Positions 10,254 through 19,869 of a DNA stretch of 64,000 nucleotides are shown piece after piece. The notes beneath the pieces are model-generated. The model searched no databases, was not told the origin of the DNA, and saw only the letters and a program-made list of their open reading frames with translations. The DNA lies in NCBI RefSeq assembly GCF_900143215.1, contig NZ_FRDM01000003.1, positions 1-64,000 on the forward strand, given 5' to 3'. Numbering within the stretch: position 1 is the first letter of the stretch; the number at the start of each line of letters is the position of its first letter. The position numbers and the translations under genes are program-made. The DNA is from Geodermatophilus obscurus (lineage in GTDB: Bacteria; Actinomycetota; Actinomycetes; Mycobacteriales; Geodermatophilaceae).

Positions 10254-10952
10254 ATGAGGACCATCGGGCTGCTGGGCGGGATGAGCTGGGAGTCGACGGC
10301 GCTGTACTACCGCATCGCCAACGAGCTGGTGCGGGAGCGGCTGGGTGGGCTGGCCAGCGCGTCGCTGCTGGTGCGCAGCCTGGACTTCCGCGTCATCCGG
10401 GAGTGCCAGCTGGAGGACCGGTGGGACGACGCGGCCGCGCTGCTGGCCGCCGAGGCGCGGGCGCTGGAGTCCGCCGGTGCCGAGCTGGTGCTGCTGTGCA
10501 CCAAGTACATGCACCGGACGGCGCCGGCGATCGAGGCGGCCCTGGACGTGCCGTTCCTGCACATCGCCGACCCGGTGGCCGCCGCCGCGCCCGGCCCCAC
10601 CATCGGACTGCTGGGCACGGCGGGCACCGTGCGGGCGCCGTTCCTCCGCGACCGCCTGGCGGCTGCCGGCCTCAGCGTGCTGGTGCCGCCGGAGGACGAC
10701 GTCGACCGCGTGGACGCGGCCATCTTCGACGAGCTGTGCCGGGGCGTGCTCTCCGACGCCACCCGTGCCGACCTGCGCGCCGTCGTCCGCCGGCTCGCCG
10801 AACGGGGCGCCGACGCCGTGGCGCTGTGCTGCACCGAGCTCGAGCTGCTGCTCGGCCCGGGCGACAGCCCGGTGCCGCTGCTGCCCTCGGCCCGGCTGCA
10901 CGTGACCGCGGCCGTCGAGGCCGCGCTCGCCCCGCGACCGGCCGTGGTCTGA
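10254..10952 (+). CDS. Aspartate/glutamate racemase family protein
   Basis: A 232-residue cofactor-independent racemase starting MRTIGLLGGMSWESTALYYR, close to the YgeA/aspartate racemase group. The two catalytic cysteines are in LLCTKYMHR (about residue 82) and LCCTELELLL (about 197). The usual LCTNTMH is changed to LCTKYMH here, which may alter specificity. Expected role: racemisation of aspartate, glutamate or a related amino acid. It is likely regulated by the divergent LysR protein. Confidence 0.85.
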   Translation: MRTIGLLGGMSWESTALYYRIANELVRERLGGLASASLLVRSLDFRVIRECQLEDRWDDAAALLAAEARALESAGAELVLLCTKYMHRTAPAIEAALDVPFLHIADPVAAAAPGPTIGLLGTAGTVRAPFLRDRLAAAGLSVLVPPEDDVDRVDAAIFDELCRGVLSDATRADLRAVVRRLAERGADAVALCCTELELLLGPGDSPVPLLPSARLHVTAAVEAALAPRPAVV

Positions 10953-10959
10953 TGATCGC

Positions 10960-11039
10960 GTGACCGAGCTCGCGAGGTCACCCACCGGCAGAGCACCCAT
11001 GGGCGCGTGATCGACGAGCGCCAGCGAGGAGGACACGTG
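10960..11039 (+). repeat. 77-bp leader element carrying SD and GTG start
   Basis: This element runs from the GTGA at 10960 to the SDR start GTG at 11037, exactly 77 bases later. It starts with a hairpin (GTGACC ... GGTCAC around GAGCTCGCGA) and ends with GACGAGCGCCAGCGAGGAGG, the Shine-Dalgarno of the SDR gene. The same element occurs twice in tandem, in inverse orientation, at 17731-17890 ahead of recD2. There the hairpin arms are GTGAGC ... GCTCAC, a compensatory change. Confidence 0.7.
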
Positions 11040-11840
11040 ACCACGCCCGCACCCCGTCCCGGATCCGTCGCACTCGTCACCGGGGGGACCGGCGGCTTCG
11101 GCCGCGCCCTCGCCGCCAAGCTGAGGGAGCGGGAGGTCACCGTCGTCCTCGCCGACCTGGACAGCGAGCGGGCGCGCGCCACCGCCGCGGACCTGGACGC
11201 GGAGTTCGAGGTCCTCGACGTCACCGACCGCGCGGCCAACGCCGCGCTCGTCGAGCGCATCGAGGCCCGGCACGGCCGGCTCGACGCCGCGTACCTCAAC
11301 GCCGGCATCTCCGCGGCCAAGTCCGACGACGAGCTCGACCTCGACGAGTTCCTGCGGGTCGTCGACGTCGACCTCTTCGGCGTCGTCTACGGCGCGGTGG
11401 CCGCCCGCCCGGCGATCAAGCGGGCCGGCGGCGGCGCGATCGTCGTCACGGCGTCCCTGGCCGGGCTCTCGCCGATGGCCACCGACCCCGGCTACAGCGT
11501 CGCCAAGGGCGGCGCGATCGCCTTCGTCCGGTCGATGGCGCCGCGGCTGGCCCGCGAGGGGACGACGATCACCGCGATCTGCCCCGGGTTCGCTGACACC
11601 GCGATCATCGACCGGATCCGCGACCAGTTCACGCAGGCCGGCTTCCCCGTGCTGTCGGCCGACGAGGTGGCCGACGCGATGGTCGCCGCCTGGACGTCGG
11701 GGGAGCCGGGCGCGGCCTACGTCGTCCAGCCCGGCGTCGGCACCGTGCCCTACCGGTTCAAGGGCGTGCCCAGCGCGAGGACCGCCGGCGGCGAGACCGC
11801 CGTCGTCCCGGAGGCGCTGCGGCCGCCGTCGATGCGGTGA
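11037..11840 (+). CDS. Short-chain dehydrogenase/reductase (SDR)
   Basis: A 267-residue Rossmann-fold NAD(P)-dependent oxidoreductase. The cofactor motif is TGGTGGFG (about 18-25), followed by LNAGIS and the active-site Ser (TASLAGLSP) and YSVAKGG. The start is the GTG at 11037, served by AGGAGG inside the 77-bp leader element; an upstream GTG at 11007 has no comparable site. The substrate is unknown, and no operon partner in the same direction is close enough to suggest one. Confidence 0.87.
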   Translation: MTTPAPRPGSVALVTGGTGGFGRALAAKLREREVTVVLADLDSERARATAADLDAEFEVLDVTDRAANAALVERIEARHGRLDAAYLNAGISAAKSDDELDLDEFLRVVDVDLFGVVYGAVAARPAIKRAGGGAIVVTASLAGLSPMATDPGYSVAKGGAIAFVRSMAPRLAREGTTITAICPGFADTAIIDRIRDQFTQAGFPVLSADEVADAMVAAWTSGEPGAAYVVQPGVGTVPYRFKGVPSARTAGGETAVVPEALRPPSMR

Positions 11841-11843
11841 GCG

Positions 11844-12419
11844 TCAGCCGGCGTCGGTGCGGCAGGCGTACAGGAACGCCGGGGGCACGTTCCAGGGCGT
11901 GATCCGCTGCTGCACCGACGGGAAGCGGCGGCGCAGCTCGCGCAGGATCAGCGGTGAGTACTGGATCACCAGCAGCACGCCGCCGGGCGCCAGCGCGACC
12001 GGCAGCAGGTCCAGCACCCGGCGACGCAGCCCCGCCTCGAACGAGGTGTAGGGCAGCGCGGAGACCAGCACGTCGGCCCGCTTGCCGCCCAGGTGGACGT
12101 CGAGGTTCTCCGCCGAGTCGCACACGACCTGCAGCCGCGGGTCGTCGTAGCGCTCCTCGAGCAGCTTGGCCAGGTCCGGGTCGATCTCCAGCGCCACCAG
12201 CCGGGCGGTCGGGCCGAGCCGGTCGAGGATCTCGCCGGTCTGCACCCCGGTGCCCGCGCCGAGTTCCACGACCAGTTCGGCGCGCGGCACGTCGGCCAGG
12301 TCCAGCATGTCCCGGACCGCCCAGCGCGAGGTCGGCAGGATCGCTCCCACCTGGCGCGGGTTCGCCACGAAGGCGCGCAGGAACCGGAACCGGTCGGTCA
12401 GGGTCTCTCTCATGCCCAT
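11844..12419 (-). CDS. SAM-dependent methyltransferase (phospholipid N-methyltransferase-like)
   Basis: About 191 residues. RFRFLRAFVANPRQVGAILP is typical of the PmtA/rRNA-dimethyltransferase-like group. The SAM-binding motif I is VVELGAGTGVQTGEIL, the acidic motif II follows in LVALEIDPD, and ALPYTSF matches the usual NLPY-type motif IV. It may methylate phosphatidylethanolamine or another small target. The start is taken at the ATG at 12419, with an alternative ATG at 12413; a longer frame to 12464 lacks support. It ends 4 bases after the convergent SDR gene. Confidence 0.75.
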   Translation of the reverse strand: MGMRETLTDRFRFLRAFVANPRQVGAILPTSRWAVRDMLDLADVPRAELVVELGAGTGVQTGEILDRLGPTARLVALEIDPDLAKLLEERYDDPRLQVVCDSAENLDVHLGGKRADVLVSALPYTSFEAGLRRRVLDLLPVALAPGGVLLVIQYSPLILRELRRRFPSVQQRITPWNVPPAFLYACRTDAG

Positions 12420-12508
12420 CCTCTCCCGGCCGCCCGGGGCGGCGGACCGCGTCGACCCTGACACGGCCGCGGTGGGCCAGCGACCGCGGACCCACCGCGG
12501 CCGAGAGC

Positions 12509-12715
12509 TCAGATGTGCGGCTTGGGCAGGTAGGACAGCCGGGCCCGGCGGCGCAGGATGACCTTGCGCGTGCCGTCGGCGTGCAGCTGCAGCCGGGCCA
12601 GTTCCCAGCCGCCGGTGTCCGCCTGCAGGCTCAGCATGGTCGCCGCCGCGGACCGGGACGTGCCCGGTGGGATCCGCAGCGGCGCGAACTCGTACTCCCC
12701 GGCGACCGCCTCCAT
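12509..12715 (-). CDS. DUF5703 family small protein
   Basis: A 68-residue protein with YEFAPLRIPPGTSRSAAA and GGWELARLQLHADGTRKVIL, matching the compact DUF5703 family of actinobacteria, in which a GGWEL core and a basic C-terminal strand are conserved. The function is unknown. The ATG at 12715 is preferred; an ATG at 12751 would add twelve residues. It lies alone between the methyltransferase and an acidic-protein gene. Confidence 0.75.
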   Translation of the reverse strand: MEAVAGEYEFAPLRIPPGTSRSAAATMLSLQADTGGWELARLQLHADGTRKVILRRRARLSYLPKPHI

Positions 12716-12851
12716 CCCGCCGATTGTGCCCGCCGGACGGCCCCAGGTCATGTGACCGCCGCCTCCCGGTCTGCCCGGTGGGGCACCGGACGGCAGGATG
12801 GGACCGGCCCCATCCCCGACGACCCCCACCCCCGACGACACGGAGGACGAC

Positions 12852-13118
12852 GTGACCGCTCCCGGCAACGACGTGCCCGATGCCGACCGCGCCGAGCAGG
12901 AGGCCCCGCTCGACCCGCCGGCCGTCGCCCTCGCCGGTGACGCCACCCCGCCGGGGGAGGGCGTCCCCGAGGCCGACGCCCTCGAGCAGCAGCTGGCCGC
13001 CCGGCCGGGGGAGGCCGGCAGCCCGCTGCGCCCGGTCGGTGACCGCGAGGCCGACCCCGCCGACGTCCTCGAGCAGGAGGCCGACGTCCCCGTCGACGAC
13101 GACGACGTCCCGCTGTAG
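12852..13118 (+). CDS. Small acidic protein with EADALEQ-type repeats
   Basis: The GTG at 12852 is preceded by GGAGGA (12842-12847). The 88-residue product is strongly acidic and built from three related segments: NDVPDADRAEQEAPLDP, GVPEADALEQQLAARPG and READPADVLEQEADVPV. Similar short P-E-A-D-x-x-E-Q proteins are widespread in actinobacteria without assigned function. It is probably intrinsically disordered and cytoplasmic. I would not assign a role. Confidence 0.65.
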   Translation: MTAPGNDVPDADRAEQEAPLDPPAVALAGDATPPGEGVPEADALEQQLAARPGEAGSPLRPVGDREADPADVLEQEADVPVDDDDVPL

Positions 13119-13142
13119 CCGCGCCGCCGGCGGCTCGGGACC

Positions 13143-14750
13143 TCAGGGCAGCAGCCCGTTGAGTGCCTGCGCGGCAACGGCCGCGGTGGTGGGCGCCGGC
13201 ACGGGGGACTCGAACACCGTCTCCTGCCGGCAGACGGTGCCTGCGGCCGGCAGCGCACCGTCGACCAGGTACGCCTCGGTGCTGCTGTCGATGCAGGCGG
13301 ACCTGCCGCCGTAGGCGGCGTGCCCGTCACCCTCCAGCGTCAGCAGCCGGGCATTCCCCAGGTCGTCGGCCAGGCGCTCCGCCCAGGCGTACGGGGTCGC
13401 CGGGTCGTAGGTCGTGCCGATCACCAGCGGGGCCGGCGCGGACCCGGACGCCTCGAAGGGTCCGGGGAAGGCGTCCTCGTCGCGCACCGGCCACAGCGCG
13501 TAGTGGATCTCGGTGTACCCGCTGTTGCCCCCGAAGTGCGGGAAGGACGCCCAGGCCTCCGCGCCGCGGTCCAGGTAGACCTGCAGGTCGCCCTGCGGGT
13601 AGCGCTGCTCGGACGCGCCGATGGTGAACTGCCGGTCAGCCGGTGCGCTGTCGGCCCGGAACACCGAGTGGACCAACGCCCGGATGAACGAGGCGTCCCC
13701 GTTGGCGGCCTCGGAGAGCACCCGACCCAGCAGACCCCACAGCTGCTTGGCGTAGAGCAGCCGGATGGTCACCAGCCGGATGTCGTCCGCGGTGACCGGC
13801 CGCGGGTCGGCCGGGTACGCGTCGGCCGGGATGGGCGTCGCCTCGGCCGCGGCCAGCAGCTGGTCGTAGGCCAGGTAGGGGTCGATGCCGCCGAATCCCG
13901 AGCAGGCCACCTGGTCCACGGCGCAGGCCTCGGCGAAGCGGGCCAGCGCCACCTCGAAGCCGGCGGCCTGCTCCGCGGTGAAGCCTAGCGGGTCGTTCAG
14001 GTACCCGTCGGCGTCGACGGCGGCGTCCAGCACCATCGCGCGGTACCCCTCGGGATACAGGGTGGCGTAGGTGGCGCCGATGACGGTGCCGTAGGAGAAC
14101 CCCAGGTAGCTGAGCTGCTCGTCGCCGACCGCGGCGCGCAGCAGGTCCAGGTCGCGGGCGACGTTCGCGGTCGAGAGGTGCCCGAGGATCGCGCCGTTGG
14201 CCGCCAGGCACGCGTCGACGTAGCGCTGAGCCTGCGCGACGAGGGCGTCCAGGTCCGCGTCGAAGGGTGTCGGGGTCGGGGTCACGGTGGGGCCCTGGGT
14301 CTCCGGGTCGACCCGGCAGTCGACCGCCGGCGTGCTCGGTGCGACCCCGCGGGGAGCGAAGGCGACGATGTCGAAGCGTGCGTTGAGGTCCGCGAACAGG
14401 CCTGCCCCGGTCTCCTGCAGATAGGTCACGTACTCGCCGCCGGGGCCGCCGGGGTTGACGAACAGCGAGCCGATCCGGTTCGCCTGGTCGGCGGCCGGTA
14501 CCCGTGCGAGGGCGACCTGCACCAGTGCGCCGGCCGGCTCGTCGTGGTCCATCGGCAGGTCCGCGGCGGCGCACTGCACGCCCGCCGCGGTCGCCGGCTC
14601 CGTGGTCCCGCAGGCGCTCCACGTGAGTTGGGGGACGGTTCCGGGCAGCGGCTCGGCCGCGGGGACGGACGCGGCGGCGACCGCGGTCCCGGCGCCGGAG
14701 ACGAGCGTGGCCACGGCCACCACGACGAGCGTTCGACGCCACCTGGCCAC
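13143..14750 (-). CDS. Secreted TAP-type alpha/beta hydrolase (tripeptidyl aminopeptidase-like)
   Basis: A 535-residue exported serine hydrolase. The N-terminal signal peptide is a basic MARWRR stretch, then a hydrophobic run, then an AXA-like region. The fold begins at SLFVNPGGPGGEYV. The nucleophile is in GFSYGTVIG, the acid in IGTTYDPATPY and the His in LEGDGHAAYGG within the C-terminal TAP domain. The family releases N-terminal tripeptides or hydrolyses esters outside the cell. It is divergent from the DUF2470 gene, across the IdeR-like box. Confidence 0.88.
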   Translation of the reverse strand: MARWRRTLVVVAVATLVSGAGTAVAAASVPAAEPLPGTVPQLTWSACGTTEPATAAGVQCAAADLPMDHDEPAGALVQVALARVPAADQANRIGSLFVNPGGPGGEYVTYLQETGAGLFADLNARFDIVAFAPRGVAPSTPAVDCRVDPETQGPTVTPTPTPFDADLDALVAQAQRYVDACLAANGAILGHLSTANVARDLDLLRAAVGDEQLSYLGFSYGTVIGATYATLYPEGYRAMVLDAAVDADGYLNDPLGFTAEQAAGFEVALARFAEACAVDQVACSGFGGIDPYLAYDQLLAAAEATPIPADAYPADPRPVTADDIRLVTIRLLYAKQLWGLLGRVLSEAANGDASFIRALVHSVFRADSAPADRQFTIGASEQRYPQGDLQVYLDRGAEAWASFPHFGGNSGYTEIHYALWPVRDEDAFPGPFEASGSAPAPLVIGTTYDPATPYAWAERLADDLGNARLLTLEGDGHAAYGGRSACIDSSTEAYLVDGALPAAGTVCRQETVFESPVPAPTTAAVAAQALNGLLP

Positions 14751-14917
14751 GGACCCCAGCCCTCCGGAGGATGCCGGGGCGCCACGGGACGAGCGCCCCC
14801 TGAACGCCGGTCATCGAACACCCGCCCTGGTGGTGCGGGCAACGGTCCGGGGTCCGCCCGTCCACCGTCCCGGCGCGTCGGGGGCGGCGCGCCGGTGGGG
14901 TTCCGCCGACCGGCAGG

Positions 14918-14936
14918 TCAGGTTAGGCTCACCTAA
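14918..14936. promoter_or_regulatory. IdeR/DtxR-type iron box
   Basis: TCAGGTTAGGCTCACCTAA matches the 19-bp iron-regulator consensus TTAGGTTAGSCTAACCTAA at 17 of 19 positions. It lies 26 bases ahead of the DUF2470 start, in the gap between two divergent genes. IdeR binds with Fe(II) and represses iron-uptake genes. Confidence 0.75.
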
Positions 14937-14962
14937 CTCGCCGCCGACCCCGAGGGAGCCCC

Positions 14963-15718
14963 GTGACGACGAGCCCCGCAGCGCCCACCCTCCGCGCCGA
15001 CGCCGCCGAGCGCGCCCGCACCGTCGCCGGCCGCAGCTCCGCGGCGCTGTGCGTGCGCGGGCTGGACGCCGGCCGGCCGTTGGCGCACGCGACCACCACC
15101 ACGGGCACGACCTACGTGCTGGTGCCCACCGGCGGGGAGGTCGACGCCGCGCTCGCCGGCCGCGACGACGTCACCGCGGTCCTGATGGTGAGCGACCGGG
15201 CGCCGGTGCCGCTGCGGGACCCGTTGCGCGCCCAGCTGTGGCTCTCCGGCTGGCTCACCCCGGTGCACCCGGCCGCCCGGCGCGCCGCGGTGCTGGCCTT
15301 CGCCGAGACCCGGGCGGTGACGCCGCTGCTGGACGTCGGGCAGGGCGCCACGCTGCTGCGGCTGGACGTGGCCGAGGTGGTGCTGCGGGAGGGGGAGCGC
15401 GTCACCGAGGTGGGCCCGCAGGCCTACGGGGCAGCCCGGCCGGATCCGCTGGCCGCCGTCGAGGCGCGGTTGCTGCAGCACCTCGACCGCGACCACCCCG
15501 AGGTCCTCGACCTGCTGCGCAGCCGCACCCCGGCCGGCGACCTCGGCCCGCACGACGTCGTCCGACCCCTGGGGCTGGACCGCTTCGGCTTCCGGCTCCG
15601 CATCGAGTGCCCGGCCGGCCGGCGCGACCTGCGGGTGCCGTTCCCGCGGCCGCTGAGCTGCCCCGGCCAGCTGCCGGCCGCCACCCGGCAGCTGATCTGC
15701 GCCGCTCGGGCCGGGTAG
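14963..15718 (+). CDS. DUF2470 domain protein, probable iron/heme-related
   Basis: A 251-residue protein. The first 160 residues resemble the split-barrel of pyridoxamine-phosphate-oxidase-like heme-handling proteins (TTYVLVPTGGEVDAALA, VTAVLMVSDRAPVPLRDP). The C-terminal DUF2470 domain (about 165-245) includes LLQHLDRDHPEVLDLL and LDRFGFRLRIEC. DUF2470 is found with HugZ-type heme oxygenases and in siderophore loci. The GTG start follows GAGGGA. The IdeR-like box directly upstream predicts iron-repressed expression. Haem or siderophore use is an inference from family and promoter. Confidence 0.75.
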   Translation: MTTSPAAPTLRADAAERARTVAGRSSAALCVRGLDAGRPLAHATTTTGTTYVLVPTGGEVDAALAGRDDVTAVLMVSDRAPVPLRDPLRAQLWLSGWLTPVHPAARRAAVLAFAETRAVTPLLDVGQGATLLRLDVAEVVLREGERVTEVGPQAYGAARPDPLAAVEARLLQHLDRDHPEVLDLLRSRTPAGDLGPHDVVRPLGLDRFGFRLRIECPAGRRDLRVPFPRPLSCPGQLPAATRQLICAARAG

Positions 15719-15729
15719 GACGGGTCCTC

Positions 15730-17736
15730 TCAGCCGGCGTTCTCGGCCAGCAGCTGCGCCAGCCGGGTGCGCCGCGGCCGGACGTCGACCTGGCTCACCG
15801 CGCGGGCCAGCGCCGCACCGCTGGCGTGCACGATCGACAGGTGCCGCTGCGCGCGGGTCAGCGCGGTGTAGACCAGCGGCCGCGACAGCATCCCGCCGGC
15901 CTCCGGCGGCAGCACGACGACCACGCCGGGCCACTCCGAGCCCTGCGCGCGGTGCACGGTGATCGCCCAGCCGTGCCGCAGGTCGCTCATCGCCGACCCG
16001 CTGACCGTCACCGGCCCGGAGGCGAAGTCGACGTCGAGGCTGCCGTCGCCGGTGCCGGTGACCACGCCGGTCTCGCCGTTGGCGAACCCGGTGGGCTCCA
16101 GGTCCAGGTGGTTGGCGGTGGCCACCACCCGGTCGCCGACGTCGAAGCCCCACACCGTGCCGTCGCCCGGGTTGAGCTGCGACTTGAGCGCCTTGTTCAG
16201 CTCGATCGTCCCGGCCGGTCCGCGGTGCACCGGCGTGACCACCTGCACGGTCGCCGGGTCGATCCCCAGCGCCCGCGGGATGGAGTCGGTGACCAGCTGC
16301 ACCACCCGCTTGGCCGCCTCCGCGCTGCCGCCGGCGGGGACGACGACCACCTCGCGGTCGGGGGAGTCCACCGGCGGCAGCTCCCCGGCCCGGACGGCGT
16401 TGGCCAGCCGGGCGATCGCCCCGCCCTCGGCCTGCCGGTAGAGCGTGGTCAGCTCGGTCACCGGGACGACGCCGGAGTCGATGAGGTCGCCGAGCACGTG
16501 GCCCGGCCCGATCGAGGGCAGCTGGGCGGGGTCGCCCACGAGCAGCAGGTGGGTGCCGTCCTGGCAGGCCTCCAGCAGCGCCGCGGTGAGCTCGACGTCG
16601 AGCATGGAGGCCTCGTCGACCACGACGACGTCGGCGTCCAGCGGCCACTCCTCGTTGCGGGCGAACCCGCCGGTGGTGCCCTGCGCGCCGAGCAGCCGGT
16701 GCACGGTGACCGCCGGGTGGTCGGTCAGCTCCTCCAGCCGCTTGGCCGCCCGGCCGGTGGGCGCGGCCAGCGCGACCTCGGTGCCCCTGGTCCGCAGCAG
16801 CTGCACCACCGCGGCGACGGTGCGGCTCTTGCCGGTGCCCGGCCCGCCGGTCAGCAGCGAGACGCCGGCGCCGAGCACCTGCGCGACGGCCTGCTTCTGC
16901 GCGTCGTCCAGGCCCTTGGCCACCGAGCGGACGGCGGCGGGGTCGGCGATACGCTCGGCGGTGGCGGCCAGCCGGGCGACGTTCTCCGCGACCGCCTCCT
17001 CGGCCATCCCGTAGCGGGCCAGGGACAGCATCCGCACGGCCTCGGTCCGGGTTCCCTCGCGAGCTTGCGAGCGGAGGGCGGACCGAGGTCCTTCTGCCGG
17101 CTCGGGCAGCTCGTCGAGATCCGCGTCCTCGTCGTACTCCGGCTCAGGGGGCTCGTGCTCGAGCACCTCGCCGGACTCGACGGCGGCGACGACCGCCGCG
17201 GCCGGGTCGGCGACGCCCTCGGCGCGCAGCGCGGCGACGACCAGGTCGGCGGGGAGCACGGTGTGCCCGTCGCGGGTCGCCGTCCGCAGGGTGTGGGCGA
17301 CGACCGCCCGCCCGCGCCGGGTGTCTTGCCTGTCGGCGCCGGGCAGGACGGCGATGGCCAGCCGGTCGGCGTCGCCCAGGGTGACCCCGGTCAGGCCGAG
17401 CAGCGCCCACGGGTCGTCGCGCAGCCGGCGGGCGGCGTCGTTGCCCAGGGCGTCGGCCGCGGTCGAGGCGAGCTTGGCGTCCAGGCCGGCGCCGACCAGC
17501 AGCGCCACGACCTCGTAGGTGGGCGCGGCGGCCAGGAAGCTGGAGAACAGCCGCTCGGCGCGCTGCCGGCCCACCCGGGGCAGCTTCAGCAGCCGGTCGG
17601 CGGTGACGTCGTCGGAGGAGGTGATGCCGGCGGCCGGCAGCTCCGCGGCGGCTCGCTTGCCCAGGCCCGGCCACAGGCCGGCCGCGCAGAAGGCGGCGAA
17701 GACCGGGTCGGTCGTCGTGGTGGGAGCCGCGCTCAC
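15730..17736 (-). CDS. recD2: RecD2-type ATP-dependent DNA helicase
   Basis: A 668-residue superfamily 1B 5'-3' helicase. There is a helix-hairpin-helix-rich N-terminus (about 20-190), Walker A GGPGTGKS (297-304), DEAS (374-377), QLPSIGPG, and the C-terminal motif YTALTRAQRHLSIV. RecBC partners are absent, as for RecD2. The GTG start at 17736 uses the GAGGAGG of the 77-bp leader element. Residues about 213-231 (EGPRSALRSQAREGTRTEA) are an in-frame copy of the GC-rich intergenic palindrome family. It likely acts in replication-fork or stress-related repair. Confidence 0.87.
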   Translation of the reverse strand: MSAAPTTTTDPVFAAFCAAGLWPGLGKRAAAELPAAGITSSDDVTADRLLKLPRVGRQRAERLFSSFLAAAPTYEVVALLVGAGLDAKLASTAADALGNDAARRLRDDPWALLGLTGVTLGDADRLAIAVLPGADRQDTRRGRAVVAHTLRTATRDGHTVLPADLVVAALRAEGVADPAAAVVAAVESGEVLEHEPPEPEYDEDADLDELPEPAEGPRSALRSQAREGTRTEAVRMLSLARYGMAEEAVAENVARLAATAERIADPAAVRSVAKGLDDAQKQAVAQVLGAGVSLLTGGPGTGKSRTVAAVVQLLRTRGTEVALAAPTGRAAKRLEELTDHPAVTVHRLLGAQGTTGGFARNEEWPLDADVVVVDEASMLDVELTAALLEACQDGTHLLLVGDPAQLPSIGPGHVLGDLIDSGVVPVTELTTLYRQAEGGAIARLANAVRAGELPPVDSPDREVVVVPAGGSAEAAKRVVQLVTDSIPRALGIDPATVQVVTPVHRGPAGTIELNKALKSQLNPGDGTVWGFDVGDRVVATANHLDLEPTGFANGETGVVTGTGDGSLDVDFASGPVTVSGSAMSDLRHGWAITVHRAQGSEWPGVVVVLPPEAGGMLSRPLVYTALTRAQRHLSIVHASGAALARAVSQVDVRPRRTRLAQLLAENAG
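17046..17097 (-). repeat. In-frame copy of GC-rich palindrome family inside recD2
   Basis: Read on the minus strand, this segment matches the intergenic family (GGACC ... CCGCTCGC-AAGCTCGCGAGG ... ACCCGG). It lies in the acidic linker between the N-terminal region and the helicase core and adds about 18 residues without breaking the frame. Confidence 0.5.
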
Positions 17737-17890
17737 GACACCTCCTCGCTGGCGCTCGTCGGCGCCGTGAGCGGCGCTGCTGTGCTCGTGGGTGAGCTCG
17801 CGTGCTCGCTCACGACACCTCCTCGCTGGCGCTCGTCGGCGCCGTGAGCGGCGCTGCTGTGCTCGTGGGTGAGCTCGCGAGCTCGCTCAC
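17731..17890 (-). repeat. Tandem 77-bp leader elements with overlapping small ORFs
   Basis: Two copies (17731-17807 and 17808-17884) differ at only a base or two, followed by the first bases of a third. Read on the minus strand, the aldo/keto reductase stop TGA overlaps a GTG that opens a 26-codon ORF. Its TGA overlaps the next GTG, opening a second 26-codon ORF, whose stop overlaps the recD2 GTG. Each copy supplies GAGGAGG for the next start. The repeat length (77) equals 81 coding bases minus the 4-base GTGA overlap. Confidence 0.85.
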
Positions 17891-18867
17891 CTGTCGTGCC
17901 CCCGCTCGGGGTAGCCGAAGTAGGGCGCCGAGACGTCCTCCAGCGCGGTGCGGATCGCCGCGGGCAGCCGCACCGCCTCGGCGTCCAGCGAGGCCTGCAG
18001 CTGCTGCGCGGTGCGCGCCCCGACCACCGGCGCGGTGACGCCGGGGCGGTCGCGCACCCACGCCAGCGCCACGGCCAGCGGCGTGGTGCCCAGCCCCTGG
18101 GCGGCGGTGACCACCGCCTCGACGATCCGGTCGGCGGTCGCCGAGCGCAGCCCGTCGAGGAAGCCCTGCCACCGCGGGGACGCGCCGCGGGACTCCGCCG
18201 GCGGGCCCTGCCGGTACTTGCCGGTGAGCAGCCCGCGGCCCAGCGGGGACCAGGCCAGCACGCCCAGCCCCAGCGCCTCCGCGGCGGGCACGACCTCGCG
18301 CTCGACGCCGCGCTGCAGCAGCGAGTACTCCACCTGGGTGCTGACGACGGGCACCCGGCCGGGCCAGGCGCGCTGCCAGGTGACGGCCTGCGCGGTCTGC
18401 CAGCCGGTGAAGTTGCTGATCCCGACGTAGCGCACCCGGCCGGAGGAGACGGCGGCGTCGCAGGCGGCGAGGGTCTCCTCCAGCGGGGTGGTGTCGTCCC
18501 AGGAGTGCAGCTGCCACAGGTCGACGTGGTCGGTGCCCAGGCGCTCCAGCGAGGCGTCCAGCGCGGCCAGCAGGTGCCCGCGGGAGGCGCCGCGGCCCAT
18601 CGGCCCCGGCGCGGTGCGCCCGACGGCCTTGGTGGCGACCAGCACGTCCGAGCGGGGGACGACGTCGGCCAGCAGCCGGCCCAGGGTGCGCTCGCTGTCC
18701 CCGTCGCAGTAGACGTCGGCGGTGTCGACCAGCGTGCCGCCGGCGTCGACGAACGCCGTCAGCTGCATCGCGGCCTCGTCCTCGTCGGTGTCGCGGCCCC
18801 AGGTCATGGTGCCCAGGGCCAGGCGCGAGACCACCAGGCCGCTGCGCCCCAGCGCGCGTTGTTCCAC
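17887..18867 (-). CDS. Aldo/keto reductase
   Basis: A 326-residue NADPH-dependent TIM-barrel oxidoreductase starting at the GTG at 18867 (MEQRALGRSGLVVSRLALGT). The catalytic tetrad is visible: D and Y in DTADVYCDGDSE, K in ATKAVG and H in LWQLHSWDD. The C-terminal cofactor loop is PVVGARTAQQLQASL. It is most like the YajO/Tas-type general reductases; the substrate is unknown. It is coupled through the 77-bp repeats to recD2, which is probably accidental rather than functional. Confidence 0.88.
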   Translation of the reverse strand: MEQRALGRSGLVVSRLALGTMTWGRDTDEDEAAMQLTAFVDAGGTLVDTADVYCDGDSERTLGRLLADVVPRSDVLVATKAVGRTAPGPMGRGASRGHLLAALDASLERLGTDHVDLWQLHSWDDTTPLEETLAACDAAVSSGRVRYVGISNFTGWQTAQAVTWQRAWPGRVPVVSTQVEYSLLQRGVEREVVPAAEALGLGVLAWSPLGRGLLTGKYRQGPPAESRGASPRWQGFLDGLRSATADRIVEAVVTAAQGLGTTPLAVALAWVRDRPGVTAPVVGARTAQQLQASLDAEAVRLPAAIRTALEDVSAPYFGYPERGHDR

Positions 18868-19035: not shown

Positions 19036-19869
19036 ATGAGCTGGATCGAGGCCGTCGTCCTGGGGCTGGTGCAGGGGCTGACGGAGTTCCTGCCCATCTC
19101 CTCCAGCGCCCACCTGCGGGTGGTGGGGGAGGCCTTCGGCTGGGGCGACCCGGGCGCGGCGTTCACCGCGATCACCCAGATCGGCACCGAGGCCGCGGTG
19201 CTGCTCTACTTCCGCCGCGACATCGGCCGGATCATCACCGCCTGGGTGCGCTCCCTGGGCGACCGCGCCGTGCGCGGCGACCCCGACGCCCGGATGGGCT
19301 GGCTGATCATCATCGGCACGCTCCCGATCGGGATCCTCGGCCTGCTGTTCCAGGACCGCATCGAGACCACCTTCCGCGACCTGCGCATCGTCGCGATCGC
19401 GCTGGTCGCGTTCTCGCTGGTCCTCTACTGGGCCGACCGGGTCGGGCGGAAGAAGCGGGAGCTGGACCAGCTGACCGTCGGGCACGGCATCGCCTTCGGC
19501 TTCGCCCAGGCGATGGCGCTGGTCCCCGGCGTCTCGCGCTCCGGCGGCACGATCACCATGGGCCTGTTCCTCGGCTACTCGCGGGCCGCCGCGGCGCGGT
19601 ACTCCTTCCTGCTCGCCGTCCCCGCCGTCCTGGCCTCGGGCTTCTTCCAGGTCTACGAGGCGCTCACCGGCGGGGTCGCGGGGGAGTCGGTCGCGTGGGG
19701 GCCGACGGTCCTCGCCACGGTGCTCGCCTTCGGCGTCGGCCTGGTCGTGATCGCCTGGCTGCTGCGCTACCTCGACCGCGGCAGCTTCACGCCGTTCGTC
19801 GTCTACCGGGTGGTGCTGGGCCTGCTGATCCTCGCCCTCGTCGGTGCCGGGGTGCTCGCCCCGCAGTGA
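19036..19869 (+). CDS. uppP: Undecaprenyl-diphosphatase
   Basis: A 277-residue integral membrane phosphatase that regenerates undecaprenyl phosphate, the lipid carrier of peptidoglycan precursors. Both family active-site motifs are present: EFLPISSSAH near the start and PGVSRSGGTIT in the middle. About eight hydrophobic segments are seen. The ATG at 19036 gives MSWIEAVVLG. It also confers bacitracin tolerance in other bacteria. It is monocistronic, with an inverted repeat after it. Confidence 0.95.
   Translation: MSWIEAVVLGLVQGLTEFLPISSSAHLRVVGEAFGWGDPGAAFTAITQIGTEAAVLLYFRRDIGRIITAWVRSLGDRAVRGDPDARMGWLIIIGTLPIGILGLLFQDRIETTFRDLRIVAIALVAFSLVLYWADRVGRKKRELDQLTVGHGIAFGFAQAMALVPGVSRSGGTITMGLFLGYSRAAAARYSFLLAVPAVLASGFFQVYEALTGGVAGESVAWGPTVLATVLAFGVGLVVIAWLLRYLDRGSFTPFVVYRVVLGLLILALVGAGVLAPQ

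Follow-up and report, generated by a model that had tools for sequence, protein, structure and literature searches.

Mycobacterial interspersed repetitive units (MIRUs) reportedly go back to Supply et al. in 1997, and MIRU loci serve strain typing. As far as the descriptions compared here go, MIRUs are repeated units of 50-100 bp that occur in tandem with variable copy number (PMC12548453, PMC4213456, PMC4803746); 77-bp units lie between senX3 and regX3 (PMC4213456), and MIRU10 could promote a downstream gfp (PMC4803746). A 2025 review portrays MIRUs as apparently mobile units that insert at start codons and couple an internal ORF to the gene with a spacing of -4 nt (PMC12548453). One report words them as present only in M. 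leprae and the M. tuberculosis complex (PMC4213456).

The 77-bp unit analysed here was found in Geodermatophilus obscurus, in a window of 64,000 nucleotides (the whole stretch of DNA analysed, positions 1 to 64,000 of contig NZ_FRDM01000003.1). Set beside MIRUs by description, it is a short, interspersed, multicopy unit (89 matches in the genome) that stands at the start codon of the next gene in the same orientation (94 of 97 copies in frame; 44 of 49 empty junctions starting with RTG), whose small ORF overlaps the neighbouring gene by 4 nt (97 of 97 named 77-nt copies), and which is mobile and variable in tandem number. The first-pass annotation had placed it outside any standard repeat class. 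That claim is not supported, as mobility, insertion at start codons and -4 nt coupling of an internal ORF are the anatomy described for mycobacterial MIRUs (PMC12548453). In contrast to the MIRUs of those descriptions, the unit is found in Geodermatophilaceae and other actinobacterial families rather than being confined to mycobacteria, and it is therefore called MIRU-like, not MIRU. It also differs in having two covarying hairpins, one of which reaches into the host gene with host-matched bases, a feature absent from the MIRU descriptions compared. The kind of element is known, on this comparison of architecture; the hairpin over the host start codon and the host-matched bases are new.

Other described systems share single traits with the unit, as far as their accounts go. 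REP/RAYT elements are also small, high-copy, hairpin-forming and plausibly transcribed, but REPs are palindromes of 20-40 bp, mostly with GTAG or CGTC tags and mostly located 3' of genes (PMC3733652), whereas the present unit has 77 bp, sits at start codons, carries a mini-ORF and is accompanied by no Y1 transposase match in the genus. The enterobacterial RU-1, RU-2 and RU-3 are small mobile intergenic sequences able to carry ORFs; they are longer (103-168 bp) and MITE-like, and a stop/start overlap at start codons is absent from the descriptions compared (PMC2759123). In the mgtQ-mgtB leader of Salmonella, a short ORF lies between two genes and across stem-loops that exclude one another, by which the ribosome site of the next gene is either hidden or exposed (PMC8092293); that is a single leader at one gene, whereas here a mobile unit brings a similar arrangement to dozens of genes. 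A literature search by titles and abstract beginnings gave no recognisable account of such units in Geodermatophilaceae or of host-matched hairpins.

Positions in the unit are numbered from the R of its 5' RTGA (position 1), and 78 onward belongs to the host gene. The consensus runs S1 RTGAXC (1-6), a loop, A1 GX'TCAY (17-22), S2 GCAXYZ (34-39), A2 Z'Y'X'NNAY (41-47), GACGAGCGCCAGCGAGGAGG and CRTGAXYZ (77-84), with RTGASCGAGC and GAGGAGGNNC as the 5' and 3' termini. The 5' hairpin is called HP1. HP2 is a 10-bp hairpin in which 41-50 pair with 75-84; it covers the host start codon and three bases in the host's next codons. A mini-ORF starts at position 1 and ends with the TGA at 79-81, and the unit both starts and stops in a GTGA overlap. 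The features of the window are as follows.

10254-10952, plus strand: Asp/Glu racemase gene upstream of copy 1; its stop lies 7 bases before the element.
10960-11036, plus strand: copy 1 of the 77-bp element, directly 5' of the SDR start codon; covariance-model match 10960-11040, 92.6 bits.
10960-10981, plus strand: HP1 of copy 1, arms GTGACC (10960-10965) and GGTCAC (10976-10981), from the sequence and the 5-18 and 1-22 covariation in 82 named copies.
10960-11010, plus strand: mini-ORF of copy 1, read from the sequence, with an early TGA at 11008-11010 overlapping a GTG at 11007-11009 that is in frame with the SDR gene.
10993-10998, plus strand: S2 segment GCACCC of copy 1, which nearly repeats, in sense, the bases that follow RTG in the host (CC of CCA; 37/82, 38/83 and 39/84 identity).
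11000-11009, plus strand: A2 of copy 1 as the 5' arm of HP2 (TGGGCGCGTG), pairing with 11034-11043 through nine standard pairs and one G.A; present in the minimum free energy (MFE) fold.
11007-11840, plus strand: open reading frame running from the GTG inside copy 1 into the SDR gene, from the ORF list.
11026-11032, plus strand: Shine-Dalgarno-like GAGGAGG of copy 1, almost invariant in alignments A1 and A2.
11034-11043, plus strand: 3' arm of HP2 of copy 1, made of the last 3 bases of the element, the GTG start and 4 bases of the SDR gene (pairs 41-84 to 50-75).
11037-11840, plus strand: SDR gene downstream of copy 1 (Pfam adh_short, 2e-41).
15730-17736, minus strand: recD2 gene downstream of copy 3 (Pfam HHH_RecD2, 5.5e-12, and AAA domains).
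17730-17739, minus strand: HP2 of copy 3, 3' arm, lying over the start codon of recD2; the MFE fold has -44.2 kcal/mol and a z of -2.5.
17733-17813, minus strand: mini-ORF of tandem unit 2, from the sequence; its TGA overlaps the recD2 start.
17737-17813, minus strand: unit 2 of the tandem (copy 3), which adjoins the start codon of recD2 on the 5' side; covariance-model match of 97.8 bits.
17810-17890, minus strand: mini-ORF of tandem unit 1, 26 codons and TGA, from the sequence.
17814-17890, minus strand: copy 2 (tandem unit 1); covariance-model match of 100.1 bits; its 5' GTGA overlaps the TGA stop of an aldo/keto reductase gene.

What had been noticed in the window from the sequence alone was confirmed for all three copies. 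GTGA and GTG are 77 bases apart (10960 to 11037, 17890 to 17813 and 17813 to 17736), the 5' arms are GTGACC/GGTCAC and GTGAGC/GCTCAC, and the 3' end is identical, the 20-mer GACGAGCGCCAGCGAGGAGG being exact at 11013-11032 (plus strand), 17818-17837 and 17741-17760 (minus strand; chance expectation 0.04 with up to 3 mismatches allowed). The genes behind the copies are unrelated, one an SDR (adh_short, 2e-41) and the other RecD2 (HHH_RecD2, 5.5e-12), and the ribosome site that the element was said to bring along is a Shine-Dalgarno-like GAGGAGG, nearly invariant across aligned copies. That account is extended here by a mini-ORF, which begins with GTG and ends with the overlapping TGA, by the 3' hairpin that covers the start codon and by the host match. 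The in-frame GTG at 11007-11009, inside copy 1, overlaps the early stop of the mini-ORF, and translation of the SDR gene could also start there, 10 codons upstream. An Rfam search of window positions 10900-18000 gave a single match (E 0.33), far below the cut-off and outside the elements.

Further copies, whose absence would have spoken against the first-pass annotation, were plentiful. The own genome contained 21 exact matches to a 17-mer of the unit's 3' end (0 for the reversed control) and 50 BLAST matches with one unit at E<=1; of its 89 covariance-model matches (E<=1), 79 had E<0.001. Covariance-model matches at E<=0.01 numbered 4-93 per genome in all 25 genomes of the genus (own included) among the 41 drawn as relatives; outside the genus, two of the 16 genomes of the same draw had one marginal match each. 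Among the matches listed, carriers included Geodermatophilus, Blastococcus, Modestobacter, Pseudonocardia, Amycolatopsis and others. Model R2 had matches at E<=0.001 in 118 of 298 genomes from the order, and 49 of the 51 family members among the matches listed were among these; in the class, 16 of 296 genomes (own included) matched at E<=1e-5. R2 contains the HP2 pairs, and its matches in other families therefore favour pairing by construction. A sample of family f8 gave matches at E<=0.01 in 5 of 41 genomes, with strong matches in one genus (g27), whose units repeat every 80 bp and whose S2:A2 can be a hairpin of 5 bp around a loop that varies. A distant BLAST search of a plasmid collection with a window copy gave no match.

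The named set comprised at least 113 loci among the matches listed, of which 100 were analysed; these gave 114 regex copies, 112 distinct and 97 non-tandem, with 85 distinct non-tandem copies of 77 nt. Three loci (L083, L124 and L163) are apparent chance matches; L083:3414-3530, in Gordonia sp. OPL2, is a tandem repeat with a unit of about 44 bp and GACGAGCGTGCGAGGAGG, apparently without relation to the element, that was caught by the pattern. From one RTGA to the other, 97 of the 112 named copies (among the matches listed) and 51 of 65 own-genome matches with E<1e-6 measured exactly 77 bp. Six of the other 14 were in phase, and phase is not clearly held. The mini-ORF was open in all 97 named 77-nt copies (73 ± 3 after column shuffling; reached by 0 of 500 shuffles) and in 158 of 163 copies of a wider set; copy 1 of the window, with its early stop, is an exception.

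Several variants and arrangements were seen in passing. A related array of family f31 (L401, G393 C3:244711-244921) has a 68-bp period and three near-identical units in succession, and a longer unit in Geodermatophilus chilensis (L110:3884-3983) has a partly duplicated hairpin arm. A 101-bp variant in genome G024 (L247, match 19507-19611) carries an extra palindromic insert, GGGGGTACCTCCCGCTTGCGGGGGA, apparently from another repeat family that has come to lie inside this one. Two diverged copies in the same genome (L257:14786-14867 and L258:15353-15435) have similar upstream sequence and downstream gene starts and may sit in duplicated operons. In genome G000, copies lie at contig ends (C35 end, 106818-106898; C68 start, 8-88; C55 start, 12-92; C45 start, 14-94); since identical unit sequence ends C35 and begins C68, tandem arrays of the element seem to break the assembly.

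The unit inserts directly 5' of the RTG of a gene, usually where an upstream TGA overlaps that start. Among the matches listed, the frame of the 3' RTG had the best coding periodicity downstream in 94 of 97 non-tandem named copies, as expected of an element that ends exactly at start codons and not at random positions, and it stayed open for 100 codons in 90 of the 97; the upstream frame ended by the TGA at 2-4 had the best periodicity in 67 of 82 named copies. Twenty own loci were queried in six relatives and stretches were fetched for 19 of them; the 90 distinct comparisons were divided into 49 empty and 41 filled sites, which bears out a mobile, dispersed unit. Of the empty junctions, 44 began with GTG or ATG and the other five were alignment offsets or other starts, and 26 of the 41 filled sites measured exactly 77 bp. 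Window site 1 was empty, with a gap of 0, in G015, G012, G008 and G024, and had a 6-base alignment gap and no unit in G041. Window site 2 had no unit (gap under 25 bases) in 24 of the 25 relatives covered on both flanks, G015, G024 and G041 among them; tandem number there was two in the own genome and one in G003. At the L017 locus, one unit was present in the own genome and G015 and two in G024 and G003.

With RTGA at both unit ends, the upstream stop still overlaps a start, now that of the 26-codon mini-ORF, and the TGA of the mini-ORF overlaps the host start. At a site with a GTGG start only the 3' RTGA is the host's, and no terminal inverted repeat was seen by eye. The signs as to which end holds the host's original base were mixed, L031, L037 and window site 1 pointing to the left end and L044, L015 and L033 to the right. 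A simple target-site duplication of RTGASC would account for the strong X5-X82 association, but hybrids and the GTGG site indicate that the 5' copy is not a mere copy of the target. Two candidate mobilisers were also rejected. Y1 transposase (PF01797) was found in 0 of 26 genus genomes and in 5 of 14 control genomes, and reverse transcriptase (RVT_1) in 13 of 26 genomes but in none of G015, G016 and G022, which have 50, 52 and 56 copies.

Covariation was scanned over column pairs of 82 named copies plus three host bases. The alignment took 82 of 95 copies, 13 array units or copies with internal indels shifting the register being omitted by hand, and the cutoff was the largest value of 30 column shuffles (0.21), in which relatedness is not kept. 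Pairs 5-18, 37-82, 43-82, 37-43, 50-75, 5-82, 38-83, 1-22, 47-78, 41-84, 49-76 and 42-83 exceeded the cutoff, as did indirect pairs among those letters and neighbouring columns (such as 23-24 and 19-20); pairs 39-84 (0.20) and 48-77 (0.15) fell below it. The covariation of 5-18 and 1-22 agrees with a 5' hairpin as first proposed. Its compensatory changes were likewise supported (position pair 5-18 was GC in 39, CG in 32, AU in 4 and UA in 1 of 82 copies). The GTGACC/GTGAGC difference, from which selection on the hairpin had been argued, partly tracks the next base of the host in addition to hairpin compensation.

The two-helix structure had 81.8% of cells paired in the 82 named copies, compared with 69.1 ± 0.7 after shuffling, and a covariation of 0.342, compared with 0.135 ± 0.009 (slid versions, <=0.06); it is favoured in this test by being derived from the same alignment. 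For one of the five structure measures, the number of pairs with both sides changed, 36 of 500 shuffles came up to the observed value. Opposite the GA of RTGA, GA replaced TC in A1 in 13 and in A2 in about 32 of 82 copies, which by its letters could form tandem G.A pairs. An alternative local hairpin (39-43/48-52) was rejected, as covariation favours 49-76 and 50-75. HP2 was in the MFE of four of six folded stretches (window copies 1 and 3, L369 and L371); L025 took another fold, and the stretch for L328 was a poor choice. The fold of copy 3 (z -2.5) beat its shuffles, and that of copy 1 (z 0.46), from whose MFE HP1 was absent, was no better than shuffles.

Across unrelated genes, element bases 41-43 tend to be complementary and bases 37-39 identical to host bases 82-84. 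This match was tested by shuffling the host flanks 2000 times, separately from the alignment-derived structure. Among the matches listed, position 43 was complementary to 82 in 74 of 85 non-tandem named copies (shuffled, 38.7), 41 was complementary to 84 in 59 (34.4), and 37 was identical to 82 in 72 (35.0); at every position tested in these copies, 0 of the 2000 shuffles reached the observed count. Whole triples matched in 44 of these 85 copies for S2 (shuffled, 9.8) and in 49 for A2 (12.0). In 31 own-genome copies, a set that keeps tandem units and misses copies filed under other loci, window copy 1 included, the triples matched in 19 (5.2) and 23 (6.9), respectively; 39/84 was reached by 3 of 2000 shuffles and the other positions by 0. 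With one copy per host gene (n=82, among the matches listed), 37/82 matched in 69 (33.3) and 43/82 in 71 (37.1), again with 0 of 2000 shuffles; shared descent of the host genes is therefore not the explanation. No match was found at 40/85 and further. S2 shows a tie to the host base, and so does A2. In the related families f22, f27 and f31, antisense stretches to the own host averaged 6.3 nt over 19 copies, compared with 4.6 for swapped hosts (maximum 8), with some best stretches in A1 rather than A2 and one of 20 copies giving no start codon; in copy L413, from f27, 12 nt are an exact antisense of the start region of the host, 10 of them in the gene.

Orthologous copies were compared in 28 of the 41 filled comparisons, those of equal length, each against the own copy. 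Where the host base was unchanged, its A2 partner differed in 10 of 75 comparisons; where the host base differed (nine comparisons at five loci, not mutually independent), the A2 partner had changed, with both sides paired, in eight. The concordant changes are at four loci (L010, L033, L041 and L044). At L032, A2 failed to follow a change of the host base in G041, as also in G024's copy of different length, outside this count; the G003 copy at L005, likewise outside the count for its length, kept G43 against host G82. At the GTGG start of L044, the unit has G36, C44, which pairs with the unusual G81, and T48, which pairs with A77; the three occur together at no other locus of 163 copies and singly elsewhere in 22, 11 and 5. 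With site-specific insertion, copies taken as orthologous could have arrived at one gene more than once; the concordant ones are likely single old insertions, given the spacer letters that copies have in common at L010 and the 5' halves that they have in common at L044.

Taken together, exact insertion, kept stop/start overlaps, a conserved mini-ORF and a covarying, host-matched hairpin over the start codon argue for a MIRU-like mobile relay of translational coupling, to which we assign a probability of about two in three (0.66). Three other explanations of these observations were weighed. S2 and A2 might act as a targeting guide, with insertion only at start codons complementary to A2, so that the match records the target and has no later function. 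Fixed-length recognition of this kind would give a host match at unrelated genes with a sharp edge after base 84, and the 5' end of the element is itself similar to the target consensus RTGASC. Inherited guides should cluster, however, and the most similar backbones share the host-82 letter weakly (0.559 vs. 0.451 shuffled); orthologous copies change concordantly, the G36, C44 and T48 combination that suits a GTGG start has no second locus among the 163 copies, although each base occurs singly elsewhere, and the genus lacks Y1 transposase in all 26 genomes. A targeting guide is an unlikely explanation on this evidence. Slightly less likely still is a neutral, selfish MIRU-like repeat, tolerated for the restored RTGA overlap and ribosome site, whose hairpins would reflect a transposition step only. 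The wide range of copy number within one genus, presence or absence between relatives at 19 loci and the existence of diverged, low-scoring copies speak for such a repeat; co-changes in place and open mini-ORFs speak against it.

The lowest probability goes to a copying process, in which DNA synthesis at or after insertion would use the host start region as its template, through quasi-palindrome correction or template switching, and write both A2 and S2 with no functional selection. It would explain why the host base is tied to S2 and A2 separately, and the 12-nt antisense of L413. It would also account for the way in which several of the 38 near-identical copy pairs at different places differ at 37/39 in step with 82/84 (e.g., L054/L080 and L064/L078). 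Mini-ORF openness and HP1 pairing are independent of host bases and are kept as well, though, and at L032 the host changed without copying; these points make copying on its own improbable. Conditional-information and backbone tests gave no separation between target choice, copying and selection in place.

In the translational relay that we favour, HP2 on the mRNA would mask the host start codon and part of the ribosome site, and ribosomes leaving the mini-ORF would open it. If the start is masked in this way, the host gene would be read mainly by ribosomes that came through the mini-ORF, and the operon would stay coupled and the insertion be tolerated. After a ribosome has passed, A2 (41-50) may switch partner and form S2:A2 (S2, 34-39) instead of A2:S3. 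S2:A2 pairing is most visible in the f8 elements, where a 5-bp hairpin is possible (e.g., L369, L371 and L373-L375), and amounts to only 2-3 bp in the own genus. Alternative stem-loops over a short ORF that open a downstream gene have a precedent in mgtQ-mgtB, as that leader is described (PMC8092293). The host match would be kept by co-adaptation in place, possibly aided by copying at insertion; the sharp edge of the match at host base 84 is unexplained by a pure need for a stable helix. A further, more tentative idea, which we consider doubtful and yet likelier than any of the three rival explanations, is that the element customises itself to each site by writing the first host bases in sense (37-39) and antisense (41-43). 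If true, each copy would be a bistable RNA switch fitted to the start codon of its own host gene.

The family has many copies in nature, alleles that lack the unit and host bases that co-vary with it, so that the coupling idea can be tested directly. It is unusual for a mobile element to covary with coding sequence in unrelated host genes, and this covariation points either to strong translational selection or to a templated step at or after insertion. Start-codon relays of this sort, if they act as proposed, would extend well beyond mycobacteria.
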